Below, piece by piece: positions 1,215 to 49,436 of a stretch of 64,000 nt of DNA (the stretch's first letter is position 1; every line of letters begins with the position of its first letter). This DNA is from Prototheca cutis (Eukaryota; Chlorophyta; Trebouxiophyceae; Chlorellales; Chlorellaceae): assembly GCA_002897115.2 (NCBI GenBank), contig BCIH01000007.1, forward strand, positions 1,173,810 to 1,237,809, written 5' to 3'. A program made the translations under genes and the position numbers. The notes below the pieces were generated by a model. The model saw only the letters and a list, made by a program, of their open reading frames with translations. It did not search any database and was not told the DNA's origin.

Positions 1215-3059
1215 ATGGCTGAGCGGGAGGAGAGACAGCTGTCACCAGAGGTCCAGGCCCGTCTGGACTACTGTGCGACCCTGGATGACCAGAGGGACGA
1301 ACTGGAAATCGAGCTTGAGGACAAGATCCGTCTCCTGGAGACGGAGTACAAGGCCAAATTCGGTGCGTTGCGTTGTTTCATGCGGCTGCTAATCCATGGA
1401 ACAGGTGGTGGCACCGGGAACGCACTGGACGGCTGAGACTGCCATGACCTCCCCTGTGCGGCACGGTGTGTGGCAAGGCCACTGTGGCGGGCTCCGGATC
1501 CCTCACTGTGCTTTCATCTCCTCGTTCTGTGCAGCCCTTCTGGACAACAAGCTGCGTGACGTCGTGAGCGGCAAGCTCGATGTCGTCGATGGGGAGGCCG
1601 TGGAGCCAGTGGGCAGCCAAGACGAGACTGGCATCCCCAACTTCTGGTTCGAGGCCCTGCAGACACACCCTAGAATCGAGGGAATGGTATGCTATGGGGG
1701 CAATGCTTGGATCAGAGGAGCAAAGGAGGAGTAAGGGTTTGTGCGCCGAGGTTTGAAAGGGGAGGGGCATGAGTGTGACTGGGGGCACTGGTGCTGTGAC
1801 CGGGACAGCTGTCCCAAACCGCATGCCCTCCGGGCATCGCTCAGCACCACAATGCCCGGCAAGGCATAGGCCAGGACCACCCCGCCATCCATGCAGATCA
1901 TGGAGCGGGATGTAGAGGTGCTCAAGTACCTGACCAACATCACCAACGAGGATGTGGACCCCAGCGAGATCCCGGAGAAGCTGAAGGAAGACGAGGACCT
2001 GCCGGACTATGAGGTGCGCTGGGGCGGAGCATGCATGGAGATTGAGGGCTTGGGGGGGGGGGACAGTTGTTACGGTCATCTTTTCCATATAGCTGTGCCT
2101 GCATGGTGGACAGCCCTGTGTGCGCCTGCCTGCAGTCCTTGGGCCTTCAAGTGGTGACACCCCCCGCCACACATGCATCCACAGACGTGTTCGCTGGTGT
2201 TCCATTTTGCGGAGAATCCCTTCTTCACTAACAAAAAGCTGACCAAGTCCTTCATTGTCGATGAGGACGGCGCGAGCGTGAGGATCTTGTACAACGCTGG
2301 TGCGTACCTCTGACAGTCGGATGGCAGTTGGACGTGCCTGGGGATGGCAGCGGCAGCTGGCGCGGCCGGGAGCCGGGTCTCCGCCGGATGGAGAGTGGGC
2401 GCTTACTGCTGGGGTTCTTGAGACTGGCCTGGTTCCGGTCGGGTCTTCCCACCCTTGGACCCACTGATTTCACCAACAATGGAAAGAAAGAAAGGAATAA
2501 ACGACCAATCAATCTCTCGATCCCGCCACTCCGAACAGGCTGCGAGATTCACTGGAAGTCGGCGTCCAAGAACGTGACGATCAAGGTGATGAAGAAGAAG
2601 GCCAAGGGTGGCGGCAAGAAGGGCGGCCACGCACATACCAAGGAGGTCCCTGTGGAATCGTTTTTCAATTTCTTCGCCGATCGCGTGCCTGACGAGGATC
2701 TGGAACCTCGCAAGGCCGAGCGCATGATGGGGGTGATGCTTGAGGATGATCTCGAAAACGCGCGCGCGATTGCCGAAATCTGCGAGCACCCGGTGGACTG
2801 GTACACGGGGGATGCGCTGGAGGACTATGAGGCGGAAGACAGCGACTACGACGATGACGAAGAAGACTACAGTGATGACTACAGCGACGAGGACGACGAG
2901 GATGATGATGAGAGCAGCAGCAACGATGACGAGGGCCCGGGTGCCCGTGGGCCCCGTGGTGGTGCCAAGCCGGGGCCCAAGGGCGGCGCCAAGGGTGGGC
3001 CCAAGGGCGGTCCAGCCATGGGTGGGCAGGGCCAACCCCAGGACTGCAAGCAGCAGTGA
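1215..3059 (+). CDS. NAP1-family histone chaperone, array copy 2 (CaaX-bearing)
   Basis: Five exons (1215-1362, 1535-1686, 1897-2013, 2185-2299, 2539-3059) give about 350 residues. The order is NAP1-like: a long charged N-terminal helix (dimerisation helix region), GIPNFWFEAL, ERDVEVLKYLTNI, the NPFFTNKKLTKSF motif, IHWKSASKNVTIK, SFFNFF, then HPVDWYTG. An Asp/Glu/Ser-rich tail follows (about residues 280-310), then a Gly/Pro/Lys segment. The protein ends CKQQ, the farnesylation-type CaaX box known from animal and plant NAP1. The start is the first ATG of the exon encoding the conserved helix, and equivalent starts occur in copies 3-7. This is the most canonical member of the array. Likely role: H2A-H2B chaperone shuttling between cytosol and nucleus. 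Confidence 0.9.
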
Positions 3060-5727: not shown

Positions 5728-7786
5728 ATGGCGGATCAGGAGGGCCGGCAGCAGCTGGCCGGGGTTCCTGCTCGGCTGGAGTACTTGGACACCTTGTCAG
5801 CCCGCAGGCTCGACTTGGAAAATGAGCTCAAGGGCAAGATTCAACTGCTTAAGATAGCACACAGGGTCAAAGAAGGTGAGTGAAGGCGGTACATCCCGCG
5901 GTCAGCTTCTCAGGAGGTCCCAGTTATGCGTTGAACACCACGCCCACGCAAGAGCTCGTCTCCAGCGATGTGCCTGGCTAGCCGTTGGCAGCCGTGGGCC
6001 AGAATGCATTCCTTTCCACACACCCATGTTGTAATCCTGTGTAGAGGGGCTGGAGAAGGAGGTGCGTGGCATCGTGAGCGGCGAGCTCGACGTGTCTGGA
6101 GATGGTGTCGTGCAGCCTGCCGCCCCTGGCGGTCGTGGCATCCCCGAGTTTTGGTCCCAAGCTCTCCTGACGCACCCTGGATTGAAGGAATTGGTACGCG
6201 GAGTGCGAGTATTGCGTGGGTCCAGCAGCCGGGGACTCTTGCCCGTCCCCTTGCTTGCGCCTGCTGTCGGCCAGCCCAAGCCATGCACATATCTGCACAG
6301 ATTACGGAGCGGGATGCGGAGGTGCTCAAGTACCTCACAAACATTGCCACTGGCGACCAAGATCCCGACGGGATCCCGCAGGAGTTCAGGAGGGCAAGGG
6401 ACGAAGTTGGCGATGATGAGGTGCGCGGGGCCCACAGCATGCCTGGACGCCTGGCATGTAGAGGGGCGTCAGAACCCGGCTATCGTGGTTTGTCTCCGCG
6501 TATGTGTGTGTGCCTGCATGGTGAAAGGCCGCTGCACACACCTGTGCAGCTCGCCGTCCCCGAATCGCGAGCTGAACACCCCTCCCCCCCTTCCTCCCCC
6601 GTCCTGCTCTGCCCCTTTTCTTGCCCACAGATGTCTGTGCACGTGTTGCACTTTGCGGAGAACCCCTTCTTCACCAACGACAGGCTGACAAAAGTGATGG
6701 TGATTCTCCGGCCAGAGGGGGGCATACCGACCATGGTCCACCGCGGTATGTCGTTGGGGGCGTGGGTGGCCTGGACGTGTCTGGGGCCATGGGCATTGCG
6801 CGACGTGCACACACCAGGCCTGGGTCGTCTGCCGAGGGTTGGGCACTCGTTGGCGGGTGCGCGGGTCGTCTGACGGCGCCCCACCACTTGTTGGCATGCG
6901 CCCGGTCACAAAGGGAAAGGCCGACGGAGGCCCCGTGGAGCCAGCCCCCTCCCACCCGCAATGCCGTCGCTGCACAGGGACCGATATTGACTGGAGATCG
7001 CCATCTAAAAATGTGACGGTCAAAGTGATGAAAAAAAAGGGCAAGGCTGGTGGCCCCGCGGCGATCAAGGAGGTTCCCGTCAAGTCATTCTTCAATTATT
7101 TTGACAACTCCCCTTTTGAGGTGGAGTTGGACCAAGAAAGGTCCCCGCAGTCGGCGTTCCTGAGGATGGCGGATGAAGCAGGGTTCACGATGATGCTGGG
7201 CGACGTCTGCTCACACCCGGAGCAATGGTATACTGGCACAGCGCTCCTGGCCTATGAGGGGGACGACAGCGATGAATCCAGCGANGACTACAGCGACGAC
7301 TACGATGAGGAAAGCAGCAGCGCCGGCAGTGACTACGATGAGGAAAGCAGCAGCGCCGGCAGTGGCTACCTCCTGTGGGGCCCCCCAATCAGCACCCACC
7401 GGGGTCCGCAGGCCAGCCAGCAAAACAGGTCCCAGGGCGGGCCCCAGGGTGGTCGGCAGGGAGGGCCGCAGCGTGGAGCCCCGGGCGGGCGCCGGGAGAC
7501 TGGGCGCCGGGGGGCCCGGCAAGGCGGCCCACAGGCAGCCCCCCAGGGAGGGCCCCAGGGAGGTTTGCAGGGAAACCCCCAGGGAGACCCCCAGGGAGGC
7601 GGGCGCGGGCGCGGGCGGGGGCGGGGCCCACAGGGAGGGCGCCAGGGAAGCAGGCGTGGGCGGGGTCCTCAGGGAGGGCGCCAGGGCGATCTGCATGGCA
7701 GATCCCAGGGCGGTCAGCAAGGCGGGCCACAGGGTGGCCCGAGACAGGGGGGCCAGGGCCAGCCTCAGGAGCACCAGCAACGGTGA
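5728..7786 (+). CDS. NAP1-family protein with long Gly/Gln/Arg-rich tail, array copy 3
   Basis: Exons 5728-5875, 6045-6193, 6301-6420, 6631-6745 and 6978-7786 give about 446 residues, with intron phases identical to copy 2. The NAP core is intact: GIPEFWSQAL, ERDAEVLKYLTNI, NPFFTNDRLTK, IDWRSPSKNVTVK, SFFNYF, and a WYTG equivalent. After two acidic DYDEESSSAGS repeats, the last ~140 residues are a low-complexity domain built on GGPQGG/GGRQG units with RG and GRGRGRG runs. It resembles RGG-type RNA-binding, phase-separating tails rather than the usual acidic NAP tail. The end (QGQPQEHQQR) aligns with QGQPQDCKQQ of copy 2, but the Cys is gone, so the CaaX box is lost. One N (7285) lies in the acidic part. 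Confidence 0.85.
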
Positions 7787-11005: not shown

Positions 11006-12747
11006 ATGGCCGAAAAACAGGCGCGAGTGCAGCTGACGGGGGTTCCTGCCCGCCTGGAGCAGCTGGAGGCTGTGACAAGACGCAGGATCGACTTGGAGAA
11101 AGAGCTCAAGAACAAGATTAGCCTGTTGGAGACGGAGTACAAGGCGAAATATGGTAGGTGACGACCTTGTATGCGGCTGACAGGTGCTGTGGAAGCAGCA
11201 GGTATCAGCAGCACTGGGAAGTAGCCCACTGTCCAGGACCTCATCCCTTGCCTTGTACCTGACTGGTCTCTGGTGACAGTGGGCCAGGATGCAGACCCGC
11301 TATCACACACCCATGTTCTCATCATGGGCAGAGGATCTGGACAATGATCTGGTTGACATCGTGAGCGGCAAGCTGGAGGTATCCAGCACAGGTGTAGTGC
11401 AGCCTGCCGGGCCTGGGTGGCGCGGCATCCCCGGTTTCTGGCTCAAACTCTTCCAGGAGCATCCCAAGCTGAAGGACTTGGTGCGCAGAGTTCGAGCACT
11501 GCTTGGACCCAGGAAGGAGTGGGATTGCAGTGAGGAAATGAAGAAGATAGACTGGTCCAGTTGCGTCTGCCGTCCTCACCCCTACGTCGTCCCAATACAC
11601 ACACAGATCACGGAGCGGGATGTGGAGGTGCTCAGATACCTGATCGACATCATTGGGCGAGATCCGGAGCCGAACGAGGTCGCAGATAGGATCAAGGAAA
11701 TAGAGCCAGATGCGACAGTGAGTCACGGTGGTACATCTGTGGAGACCTGGACCCGGTGGGTTCCTGGGGCCTGTCTGCGGCATTGCTATCTTCCCCACGG
11801 CTGCCATGCCCGCACGGTGGACGGCACCGCGCGCGCCTGAGGCCTTGCTTCCCCAAAGTGTGAGCTCGCAAGCCTTGTTTCACGCCACCCCGCCCCTGCT
11901 CACAGGTGCATACAATGGCACTCGTCTTTGCAGAGAATCCCTTCTTCACCAACCCAAAGCTGACCAAGACATTCTCGCCTGTGAACAAAGGCGATGGCCC
12001 AGGACTCGTTTACAATGGGGGTACGTTTGGGCAGAGGCAGGGTGAGCCTGGGGCCACGGCCATGGCCACGCCGGCTTGCCCAAACCAAGCCGGCACTGCC
12101 TGGCAGGGACTGGGTGCTGGCTGGTGTGGCCACCAAACAAAAAGGGAGAAGAGGACAGGAACTCGCTGCAACCTACGCCAACCCTCCAACGCCCGCATGC
12201 TCCAGGGTGCTTCATTGACTGGAAGTCTCCATCTAAGAATGTGATGGTCAAGGTGCTGAAGAAGAAGAGCCAGGGCAAGAAGGGCCCTGTGCTGACCAAG
12301 GAAGTGCCTGTCAAGTCATTCTTCAACCTTTTCGGCCGTCGTGTGCCCAGCCCGGAGATGAGCCCACGCAGCGCCGACAGATGGTCGAGGGAAATATGCG
12401 CTAGTGACTTGGATACAATAGAATGGATCTACACCATCTACGCGCACCCGATGGATTGGCACCTGGGGAAGGGACTCGAGGACTATAACAAGAAACAAAG
12501 TGAGCTTGGTGACGATGGGGATGAGTACAGTGCTGGCTACGACGATGATGACGACGACGACGAGGAGGAGGAGGAGGAGGAGGAGGGGGTGGTGGAGAGC
12601 AGCAGCGATGATGGCGGCGGCCACCCAGGCATTTGGCAGCAGCATGGAGAGGCCAAGGCGGCTTCCAAGAGGCCCCCAAGAGGGGCCCCCAAGAGCGGTT
12701 CGGCAGCGCATTATCAGGAGCAGCTGCAAGACTGCAGGCAGCAATGA
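11006..12747 (+). CDS. NAP1-family histone chaperone, array copy 5 (CaaX-bearing)
   Basis: Exons 11006-11153, 11332-11480, 11607-11717, 11906-12020 and 12206-12747 encode about 354 residues. The core has GIPGFWLKLF, ERDVEVLRYLIDI, NPFFTNPKLTKTF, IDWKSPSKNVMVK and SFFNLF. The WYTG-type element has drifted to a WHLGKG sequence. The tail has an unbroken run of about 17 Asp/Glu residues (near 12,541-12,590), then a Ser/Asp patch and a basic segment. It ends CRQQ, a CaaX-type box close to the CKQQ of copy 2. Its closest relative in the array by exon 2/3 wording is the copy 4 pseudogene. Expected role: acidic histone H2A-H2B chaperone, probably prenylated. Confidence 0.88.
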
Positions 12748-31776: not shown

Positions 31777-32386
31777 AGAGGAGGATGGTGCTTGTTGGAG
31801 GCGGAGTGGTGTTTTGAAGACTGCCGCTGCTGGCGACGATGGTTGATTGCCGTGAGCAGCAGAGGTGATTTTGGACAGGGGCACGCGGACGGCCACCTCC
31901 CTGGTCGGCGCACCCCGGGCCTTCTTTTTCTCCCCTTCCTGCATCTCCTCCCTCCCTCGAAAGGAAGGAAGAAAGGAGACAGCCCCTCACTACTCCCAAC
32001 AACGACAGCATACACCACTAGACCTTTTGCATGGGACCCTCTCGCCATTTCTTTGACAAAGAAAGAAAACACCACCATGGGGCTGGGTGAGCGGTCGGCT
32101 GCATTCTGGCCGACCGCCTGGCGTCCCCCCCTGCCCCCGTCCTGCTTTGAACTGCCAGTGATGCACGGTGGCGCAGGCCCAGCCCCTGGTTTGTTAGATG
32201 TTGTGCAGGACTTGGATCATCCGTCATTGTAACACAGAGCATATTCTGCCAAACGCGGTGGGCGCTGGGTCAGGGACAGTTTTGAGCAGTGGTCCAGAGG
32301 AAATATCGGGTTCGTGAGAGCAGTGGCCCTTGGAGCACCCCTATATGATCCGGCCAATTGAATACCCTACAACAAATCGTCTGACC
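31777..32386. other. PEPCK 3' UTR and spacer
   Basis: No gene seen. A TGTAA pentamer (32,228-32,232), the polyadenylation signal used by many chlorophytes, lies about 450 bp after the stop. Other genes in the window do not show it consistently. Confidence 0.4.
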
Positions 32387-32473
32387 TGCAGGAGGTCCCA
32401 GGTTCAATTCCTGGATGGTCCACTGTCCGAATCCCGGGCTATTAGCTCAGTTGGTAGAGCGCCTGCTTAGCAT
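32387..32473 (+). tRNA. Circularly permuted tRNA-Ala (anticodon AGC)
   Basis: The 3' half comes first: anticodon-stem strand GCAGG (32388-32392), variable loop AGGTC, T stem CCAGG/CCTGG around TTCAATT (32398-32414), acceptor strand ATGGTCC (32415-32421) and A73 (32422). A 13-nt spacer (32423-32435) leads to the 5' half: acceptor GGGCTAT (32436-32442), TA, D arm GCTC/GAGC around AGTTGGTA (32445-32460), G26, anticodon strand CCTGC and loop TTAGCA(T) (32462-32473). The halves form a complete cloverleaf: all seven acceptor pairs, five anticodon pairs and the invariant residues. Pair G3-U70, the alanine identity element, is present. A-box-like and B-box-like sequences are in reversed order. Maturation would need circularisation and cutting in the spacer, as known for permuted tRNAs in Cyanidioschyzon and some green algae. 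Confidence 0.85.
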
Positions 32474-32485
32474 TGGTTTTGCTCC

Positions 32486-32489
32486 TTTT
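32486..32489 (+). terminator. Candidate Pol III terminator of the permuted tRNA
   Basis: TTTT 13 nt after the 5'-half end. An earlier TTTT (32477-32480) is only 4 nt after it. Confidence 0.4.
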
Positions 32490-32775
32490 CTTAGCATAGC
32501 GTTTTTATTTTTGATTCAGTCCACGGCGCGGGCCGATGCACTAGGAAAGCGGGGCCCCGGGAGCTGGATGCCTGGCAGGGCCTGCCCGTCACAGTCCCTG
32601 TGTTGTTGGGCTGAATTACACTGAATCGGCAAGGATAAGGAGAAAAAGGAGCCTGCAATGTTCTCTTTCACACAGCACTCATATATAGAAATTGGGGACA
32701 GGGTGCAGCTCGTCGCGCACTGGCATTGGAAGGGGTCGGGGAAGAGCCAGTCCACACTCTCGGCTTGTTGACTCC

Positions 32776-47843: not shown

Positions 47844-49436
47844 TTAATTCTCCGTCACTACTGTGTTCTCTTTGCCAGCAGACGGGCTCGGCCGCTGGGG
47901 TTCGCAGCTCATTGTCCTTCCCTTTGTCCCCGGCACCGGGCGCACGACGCAGCCGCCCCCGGTCCACGCGCCCCGGAGCTGCCCGCCGGCCAGCCTGGCC
48001 GCCAAGCCGTCCACGGCTGAGGAAGCTGGAGGGTAGCTGGCCCCCCCTACGCGCTGGAGCAGGAGCCGCAGCACCGCGTGGGGCTGCTCGCTCCTGGCCA
48101 GGGTCTGGACGTCGTAATATGCTATGCGTACGTGGTGCTTGGGGGGTGCTGTTCCGATGAATTCACCAGGGTTTAACGCCGCGGCTCGCAGCGTCAGCGC
48201 CGCGCTTTTCTGCTGCTCCCCGGCCACGAGGGTGCAGGCTTCACGCAGGCGGGCCAGCGCCGGTCCCACCTCTGCCGGCGCTGACCGGAGCAGCGCGCGC
48301 ACGCGGTTGCGTTGGTAGATGGGCGACGCGTTGGTGGGGTCAATTACGTAATCCAGGCCCTGGGATATCGCGTACGCCTCGAGCTGCGCCTTGCCGACCT
48401 CCAGCAGTGGCCGCAGTAGTGTGAGCCGTCCTGGTGGGTGCGGGCTCGGCGTCGCCTGCTTCACAGCAACGGCACCCTGCCAGGCCAGATGCTCAAGCTC
48501 GCGGTGTTCTTCCCAGACTCCAGGATCACCCTCCGCAGCCAAAACCGATGCTGCCCGCATGCAGGCCAGGCCATGCAGCCCGCTGCCGTGCAGCAGGCGC
48601 AACACAAACGTCTCCGCTTGGTCATCTGCAGCGCGCATCGTTCATAGCACCAGGCGGCGCTTTGGTGTCTGCCAGCCGGTGGTGTGCGTTTCCATAACAA
48701 ATGTTGCCCCCCCGCCAACCCCCCCCCCCACACACACAAAAAATAAAAAATAAAATAAAATAAAATAAAATAAAATAAAATAAAATAAAATAAAATAAAA
48801 TAAAATAAAATAAAATAAAATAAAAATACATGCACGCAACTTTTAATCCACAGCACTCCTCCCGTACCAGCATGGTGTGCCGTGAGCAACACGTTGCAAC
48901 CCAGCGCCTTGCAAGCTGTATTCAGGAGGCCGTATCGCCGGCGCCGTGCAGCGGGTTGCGTGGCGGCCTTGGCCGGCGGGTCGCCACCCCAGTCGATGGC
49001 AAGCACGTGGCTCTCAAGGCCCAGCGAGGACGCCGCGAGGGCCGCCACATGCCGTGCCTCAGCCCCACTCTCGGGCCGCAGCCCGTGGTCCACCACCAGC
49101 GCCACGTGCGGCAGCGAGAGCTGTTTGGGGTCAGATGGAGATGGACATGAGTTTGAAGCCTGATACTCAGTTGGTCATGCAGCCATGGCCTTTTGGAAGG
49201 GAGCCCCATGGTTGCAGTGCAGCGCGGGTGCCCATGAACCCTGGGCGCCCCACAAGCTGCACGCCCTGTTCGCCTTTGCACTGCTCACTCACCTGGGGCA
49301 GGGTTCGCGCCACCAGAGCAGCAAGCACCATGCTATCGGGGCCTCCAGAGAGCGCCACCGCCAAGCGGGAGCCTGCTGGCAGGCTGGCGCCGGCCATCGA
49401 TCTCCGAAAGGCCGCAAGCATGGGCTCGGGCCCCAT
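47844..49436 (-). CDS. tilS: tRNA(Ile)-lysidine synthase, organellar
   Basis: Exons 49293-49436, 48868-49120 and 47844-48625 join in frame to about 392 residues. TilS converts C34 of tRNA-Ile(CAU) to lysidine, changing codon reading from AUG to AUA; in plants this is an organellar activity. The PP-loop ATPase motif SGGPDSMVL is near the N-terminus. VVDHGLRPESGAEA and TAHHADDQAETFVLRLLHGSG (across exon 2/3) are diagnostic TilS segments, as is LLRPLLEVGKAQLEAY. The short N-terminus lacks an obvious targeting peptide, so an upstream exon may be missing or the true start may differ. The C-terminal domain is weakly conserved. Confidence 0.88.
48743..48828. repeat. (TAAAA)n minisatellite
   Basis: About 16 TAAAA units on plus (TTTTA on the coding strand) in intron 2 of tilS. 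Confidence 0.95.

Follow-up and report, generated by a model that had tools for sequence, protein, structure and literature searches.

The closest relative of Prototheca cutis with reported permuted tRNA genes, in the literature accessible to us, is Auxenochlorella UTEX 250-A (Plant Cell 2025, koaf259; PMC12636532). According to the accessible parts of that paper, the permuted genes of this photosynthetic alga (22.0 Mb per haplotype, 63.9% GC) were found after the tRNAscan-SE set had proved incomplete, and Auxenochlorella is the sole photosynthetic lineage of a group in which Prototheca and Helicosporidium have lost photosynthesis (PMC12636532). More widely, a 2014 review, as far as its accessible sections go, counted 34 permuted tRNA genes in seven organisms, with at most 11 per organism (PMC3978253). 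The same source describes 11 permuted genes among the 43 tRNA genes of Cyanidioschyzon merolae, with junctions at positions 20/21, 37/38, 50/51, and 59/60, and it is for this species, where the principle is the same as proposed here, that the circular intermediate has been demonstrated. The prasinophytes Ostreococcus and Micromonas and the Bigelowiella nucleomorph carry genes of type II, with a 37/38 junction, a relaxed splicing motif (hBH), no encoded CCA, and an AT-rich upstream region, features that recur in the gene described below (PMC3978253). The archaeon Thermofilum pendens likewise has the halves reversed, but its junction lies at 59/60, CCA is encoded, and there are two such genes only (PMC3978253). 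Our full-text literature searches, with most subscription papers outside their reach, returned no report of permuted tRNA genes in Prototheca.

The P. cutis DNA analysed here, a stretch of 64,000 nucleotides (64 kb) that we refer to as the window, has a GC content of 59.5% and belongs to an assembly of 19.9 Mb in 23 contigs, in which the contig of the window is labelled C7. The features of the tRNA locus are listed in Table 1. We put at roughly 0.9 the probability that this locus is a nuclear tRNA-Ala(AGC) gene, circularly permuted and functional, with two near-identical copies elsewhere in the genome. This reading is based on the cloverleaf of the rejoined halves, a match to a permuted-order covariance model, the existence of three copies, covariation between the halves, complementarity of the leader, the lack of an ordinary tRNA-Ala among the genes found, and matches to a tRNA-splicing endonuclease. 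By analogy with other algae, the RNA probably must become a circle before it can give a working alanine tRNA. The PEPCK gene adjoining the permuted gene is 88% identical to that of Auxenochlorella protothecoides, and a light-harvesting protein (PF00504) was not found in the P. cutis genome in a six-frame search that ignored introns and was positive in one of 14 control genomes.

Table 1. Features of the permuted tRNA-Ala(AGC) locus, in positions of the 64 kb window
Feature	Position	Strand	Basis
TATA-like TATATGA, ~40 nt upstream of the 3' half, candidate Pol III start signal	32342..32348	+	sequence; putative function
Leader strand of the central helix, CTGA; can pair with TTAG at 32467-32470 (loop 32-35)	32381..32384	+	4/4 pairs
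Last two leader bases; with U38 they make a 3-nt bulge	32385..32386	+	canonical motif geometry; predicted cleavage
3' half, U38-A73 (anticodon 3' strand, variable loop, T arm, acceptor 3' strand, B box)	32387..32422	+	sequence, ARAGORN, model R2
Intervening sequence, 13 nt, between position 73 and position 1	32423..32435	+	sequence
5' half, G1-A37 (acceptor 5' strand, D arm, anticodon 5' strand, A box)	32436..32472	+	sequence, ARAGORN, model R2
Anticodon AGC of tRNA-Ala, in the 5' half	32469-32471	+	sequence
Trailer, two T4 runs (32477-32480, 32486-32489), candidate Pol III terminator	32473..32489	+	sequence

All parts of the gene lie on one strand in the order 3' half, spacer, 5' half, which is reversed relative to an ordinary tRNA gene. 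The junction falls between positions 37 and 38 in the anticodon loop (type II); because there is a T on both sides, a junction at 38/39 gives an identical product. A preliminary description of this DNA had proposed a circularly permuted tRNA-Ala(AGC) gene at 32387..32473 with 13 nt between the halves. The permutation, the start, and the spacer (32423-32435) all stand, while the end moves to 32472, the T at 32473 being only an alternative U38. When rejoined, the halves give the acceptor stem GGGCTAT/ATGGTCC, with wobbles at G3:U70 and U5:G68, the D stem GCTC/GAGC, the anticodon stem CCTGC/GCAGG, the T stem CCAGG/CCTGG, and the anticodon loop TTAGCA/T, where the stroke marks the junction. Given the rejoined halves, ARAGORN recognised a tRNA-Ala(agc) in which all four stems are present, which bears out the complete cloverleaf claimed earlier and the complementarity of the acceptor and anticodon strands, the former with its two wobbles. 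The eukaryotic consensus bases given in the accessible part of the 2014 review are U8, R15:Y48, G18G19, U33, and T54T55C56 (PMC3978253), and as read from the sequence, the rejoined tRNA carries U8, G15:C48, G18G19, U33, TTC in the T loop, and also G3:U70, the alanine determinant that had indeed been said to be kept. CCA is not encoded, A73 being followed by CTG, and the 13-nt spacer is within the range of 1-74 nt known from the accessible review table (PMC3978253). In genomic order, ARAGORN found no tRNA in the 64 kb window, and a scan of the window with Rfam gave no match at the gathering score, as both expect the ordinary order.

For statistical support, we used a covariance model, R2, made from seven ordinary non-alanine tRNAs of the P. 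cutis genome rewritten in permuted order (alignment A2); these training sequences had arbitrary spacers and included no real permuted gene. R2 gave a single match in the window at E ≤ 10, at 32387-32472, with 68.1 bits and an E-value of 1.4e-17, E-values of permuted-order models being rough. Among the 74 of 107 candidate loci that were scanned with R2 were 50 decoys that matched a D-arm pattern only, and none of these matched at E ≤ 1. The earlier statement that chance agreement of the halves is unlikely is borne out by this sole match, and the suggested check with a covariance model or a permuted-gene finder came out in favour of the gene, with one R2 match in the window and rejoined halves that pass ARAGORN.

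The preliminary description had also proposed looking for other tRNA-Ala(AGC) genes, and a DNA search of the P. cutis genome with 32340-32500 gave two more besides the window itself, at C2:1612605-1612714 (97% identity) and C6:937830-937927 (89%), so that all three copies, on three separate contigs, are permuted. Between the copies, the 3' half is identical at 36 of 36 bases and the 5' half at 36 or 37 of 37, and the spacer is the same in C7 and C2 and different in C6 (5 of 13). The last ten bases of the leader match at 7-9 positions, and the outer flanks (bases 11-100) at only 25-30 of 90 positions upstream and 24-32 of 90 downstream. This comparison indicates that the tRNA and the end of the leader have been kept while the remaining flanks drifted.

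The genome holds at least 24 permuted tRNA genes with 17 anticodons, found with permuted models and assigned by hand, and at least 17 ordinary genes with 10 anticodons, found with the Rfam tRNA family by scoring 63 of 246 candidates. Both counts are lower bounds, and the permuted search was built for the 37/38 junction in the anticodon loop and would let other types escape. The permuted genes are Ala(AGC) (three), Ala(TGC), Ala(CGC) (two), Asn(GTT) (two), Thr(AGT) (two), Thr(CGT), Thr(TGT), Ser(GCT), Ser(CGA), Ser(TGA), Ile(AAT) (two), Gly(TCC), Gly(CCC), His(GTG), Gln(CTG) (two), Leu(AAG), and Val(TAC); they share the reversed order of halves, and 22 of the 24 score at least 35.9 bits with R2, the others being Ser(TGA) with 22 bits and the Gln(CTG) gene on C12 with 19.2 bits, both assigned by hand. 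The ordinary genes, according to ARAGORN, are Lys(CTT) (two), Arg(ACG) (two), Arg(CCT), Phe, Met, Leu(CAG) (three), Asp (three), Pro(AGG) (two), Pro(CGG), and Leu(CAA). There is no overlap between the 17 permuted and the 10 ordinary anticodons, and permuted genes outnumber ordinary ones in the set recovered. For several isoacceptors, such as Cys, Trp, Tyr, and Glu, neither form turned up in these same incomplete searches.

The number of permuted genes exceeds that of any organism in the 2014 review table, which, in its accessible form, lists no Ala(AGC) and at most six permuted genes per green alga, versus 24 in P. cutis (PMC3978253). The permuted tRNA-Ala of C. merolae given there has the anticodon TGC and a 59/60 junction, whereas the 24 genes of P. 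cutis all have the junction in the anticodon loop, where our search was aimed (PMC3978253). We think it fairly probable that permuted order has become the prevailing form of nuclear tRNA gene in P. cutis (24 genes and 17 anticodons versus 17 and 10 for the ordinary form), with every Ala, Thr, Ser, Asn, Ile, Gly, Gln, His, and Val gene found being without an ordinary copy, that much of decoding would consequently depend on circular RNA intermediates, and that permuted genes multiply as permuted genes, as the three copies of Ala(AGC) and two each of Ala(CGC), Asn, Thr(AGT), Ile, and Gln suggest.

The permuted Ser(TGA) gene (L071, on C2, A box at 1778313-1778330) has an intervening sequence of 80 nt, which contains an acceptor-like decoy, GCTGTTG, and a short inverted repeat, and is slightly longer than the maximum of 74 nt in the accessible 2014 table (PMC3978253). 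A permuted-looking locus at C2:1547139-1547222 (L101), with the anticodon GGC, a short T arm, no G3:U70, and 32.9 bits with R2, could be either a decayed copy or an unusual tRNA; it is outside the count of 24 and is included as one of the 25 rows in the leader and signal tests below.

D-arm patterns with two or three mismatches allowed gave 15, 26, 6, 5, 77, 3, and 27 places in seven scans, and the same patterns read backward gave about as many (13, 28, 7, 2, 107, 1, and 25). A D-arm match alone was therefore no evidence, and genes were accepted on full structure only. All places of scans 1-4 and 6 were read, as well as 30 of the 77 and, as small stretches, four of the 27, a fifth being the Met gene already known. 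With a B-box pattern, 185 places were obtained versus 151 in the control; 100 of the 185 were listed, and two, L106 and L107, were read for their own sake, of which L107 proved not to be a tRNA. Two identical D-arm-like motifs, TGGCGCAGTGGAGGCGCG, lie at C1:864232-864249 and, on the minus strand, at C11:830610-830627, each differing from the pattern at a single base.

The six alanine genes found are without exception permuted (AGC three times, TGC, and CGC twice), and no ordinary tRNA-Ala was present among the at least 17 ordinary genes from the 63 of 246 candidates scored; in the first D-arm scan, the three permuted AGC copies were the only alanine genes. The neighbouring PEPCK gene has 55 alanine codons, of which 51 are GCC or GCG, and the demand for alanine tRNAs is therefore presumably high. 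The genome searches were incomplete and may have passed over an ordinary tRNA-Ala, and the accessible part of a report on P. wickerhamii, which lists 64 tRNA genes covering all tRNAs except selenocysteine by tRNAscan, counts against a loss of ordinary alanine genes in every Prototheca (PMC7941945). Such missed tRNAs might read the alanine codons, with the window locus producing tRNA fragments or a circular RNA that act outside decoding, an idea left some room by the lower-bound count of ordinary genes. We regard this as very unlikely, given that the locus keeps the full tRNA identity and tertiary marks, including G3:U70, U8, G15:C48, G18G19, U33, and TTC, and that many other tRNAs are arranged likewise.

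To assess covariation between the halves, 23 permuted matches (22 distinct, L101 among them) were aligned to R2; they come from 21 of the 24 loci that had permuted matches, L071, L073, and L076 being left out. In this alignment, which is fitted to the structure and hence leans towards pairing, 97.6% of 457 cells pair, compared to 58.9% with shuffled partners, and none of 500 shuffles was as high. When partners were slid by 1-3 columns, 38-47% of cells paired. Of the helices formed between the halves, the acceptor helix pairs in 99.4% of cells, with seven of seven pairs changed on both sides, and the anticodon helix in 97.2%, with five of five pairs so changed. One of five measures, the number of pairs changed on both sides, was unremarkable, at 19 versus a shuffled mean of 16.7, a value reached by 37 of 500 shuffles.

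There are 21 further permuted genes for 16 other anticodons, with stems that covary in those aligned, which argues against the halves being remnants of two adjacent ordinary tRNA genes. The same is true of the three Ala(AGC) copies, whose halves are intact and whose leader ends are kept in the midst of diverged flanks. As history, this explanation may be partly true, since duplication followed by loss of the outer halves is one origin proposed for permuted genes in the accessible text of the review (PMC3978253, section 10); as an account of the present locus, it seems to us even less credible than a role outside decoding. A misassembly in which the two halves of an ordinary gene changed places has nothing specific in its favour beyond the 56 N in the window and can practically be dismissed. 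It would have had to happen at three loci, each on its own contig, whose flanks have diverged and whose spacers are of two kinds, and to recreate the same order in all 24 permuted genes in an assembly where 17 ordinary genes were assembled normally.

How the permuted gene would give rise to a tRNA can be outlined from what is known in other algae, from transcription and cutting through the circle to maturation and charging. Pol III would transcribe the leader, 3' half, spacer, 5' half, and trailer, guided by the upstream AT-rich signal and the T-run terminator. The RNA would then fold on itself, with the two halves pairing as the anticodon stem and the end of the leader pairing with loop bases 32-35, much as the intron does in an ordinary pre-tRNA. 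The tRNA-splicing endonuclease, to whose family PF01974 two places in the genome match, would cut after A37 and before U38, the latter cut being expected between 32386 and 32387, and a ligase would join the A37 and U38 ends into a circle. RNase P and tRNase Z would remove the 13-nt spacer at the acceptor end, after which CCA would be added. Spacer removal by these two enzymes follows the circular-RNA pathway established in other algae, according to the accessible sections of the review (PMC3978253). A TATA-like or AT-rich region upstream and a T-stretch downstream are expected of permuted tRNA genes of type II, and the Ala(AGC) gene of the window has both an upstream TATA and a downstream T-stretch. 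TATA occurs at -80 to -16 in seven of the 20 rows whose upstream sequence was long enough (L101 and 19 of the counted genes), versus 3.7% of random 65-mers of the window, so it is not general among permuted genes. TTTT begins within 30 nt after the 5' half in 24 of the 25 rows, the remaining row having been read for 11 nt only, and is present in 6.6% of random window 33-mers.

By the geometry of the canonical splicing motif, pairing is expected between leader bases -6 to -3 and loop bases 32-35. The preliminary description had found no convincing bulge-helix-bulge at the junction, yet a relaxed form can be drawn with CTGA/TTAG, for which all four pairs are possible in each of the three tRNA-Ala(AGC) copies, with a 3-nt bulge that reads CC-U or UC-U. 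Judged by complementarity, the anticodon stem, the bulge, and the 4-pair helix allow the relaxed bulge-helix-bulge (hBH), the form named for green-algal permuted tRNA genes in section 8 of the partly accessible review (PMC3978253); the outer helix and first bulge of the strict motif are irregular. The test of 25 rows (24 permuted genes and L101) includes the window gene, on which the pairing rule had first been tried by eye. With fixed geometry, at least three of four pairs were possible in 16 rows and all four in seven, whereas of control leaders from genes of other anticodons, 30.0% reached at least three pairs and 4.1% reached four. Taking the first listed copy per anticodon (n = 17), 47 of 68 pairs could form, compared to a shuffled-leader mean of 34.8 (SD 2.9), and one of 20,000 shuffles was as high. 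Examples of leader and loop are Ala(TGC) with CAGA/TTTG, Leu(AAG) with TTAA/TTAA, and His with GCGA/TTGT. The test with free geometry was weaker (178 versus a mean of 112, SD 20.5, p = 0.00105).

Counting against the rule, nine of the 25 rows had fewer than three fixed pairs, namely two Asn, Thr(TGT), one Ile, Gly(TCC), two Gln, Val, and L101. Both Asn genes pair well at a one-base shift (CTGTT/AACAG and CTGT/ACAG), and five of these nine rows, Ile on C8, Gly(TCC), both Gln, and Val, have no 3-pair helix even with free geometry. Seven of the ordinary genes bear introns, and of the four introns that were checked, three (two Asp and Pro(CGG)) obey the rule with four of four pairs; because of this shared rule, the leader and trailer of the permuted genes seem to play the part of the intron. 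The Pro(AGG) intron breaks the rule, with two of four pairs.

Free folding favoured the expected structure in none of the three tRNA-Ala(AGC) precursors, which counts against our reading. It gave minima of -32.5 kcal/mol (window), -34.9 (C2), and -36.4 (C6), versus -27.2 kcal/mol for the expected structure, values that are predictions in isolation and, in the partly accessible literature consulted, not a defining test. The anticodon stem and the leader helix were both missing from the minimum-energy folds of all three copies; the acceptor stem was present in C6 only, the D stem in C2 and C6, and the T stem in all three. The z-scores of the fold minima were 0.34, -1.04, and -0.56.

With at least 24 permuted genes, covering 17 anticodons for none of which an ordinary copy was found, permutation would seem able to spread through much of a tRNA set rather than being confined to a few odd genes. 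These genes provide a natural series for the requirements of the splicing enzymes at the junction, for the start of Pol III on genes with the A and B boxes in reversed order, and for the question of origin, that is, repeated permutation versus spread by duplication. They further suggest that many tRNA genes may escape standard annotation in genomes of this kind.

Elsewhere in the window, four pieces of nucleosome assembly protein (NAP, PF00956) genes lie in a row on the plus strand, at 2265-3056, 6704-7786, 11277-11837, and 12046-12744, three above the Pfam cut-off and one below, apparently as a local tandem expansion. A PP-loop ATPase domain (PF01171) is located at 47847-48641 on the minus strand and resembles a tRNA(Ile)-lysidine synthetase.
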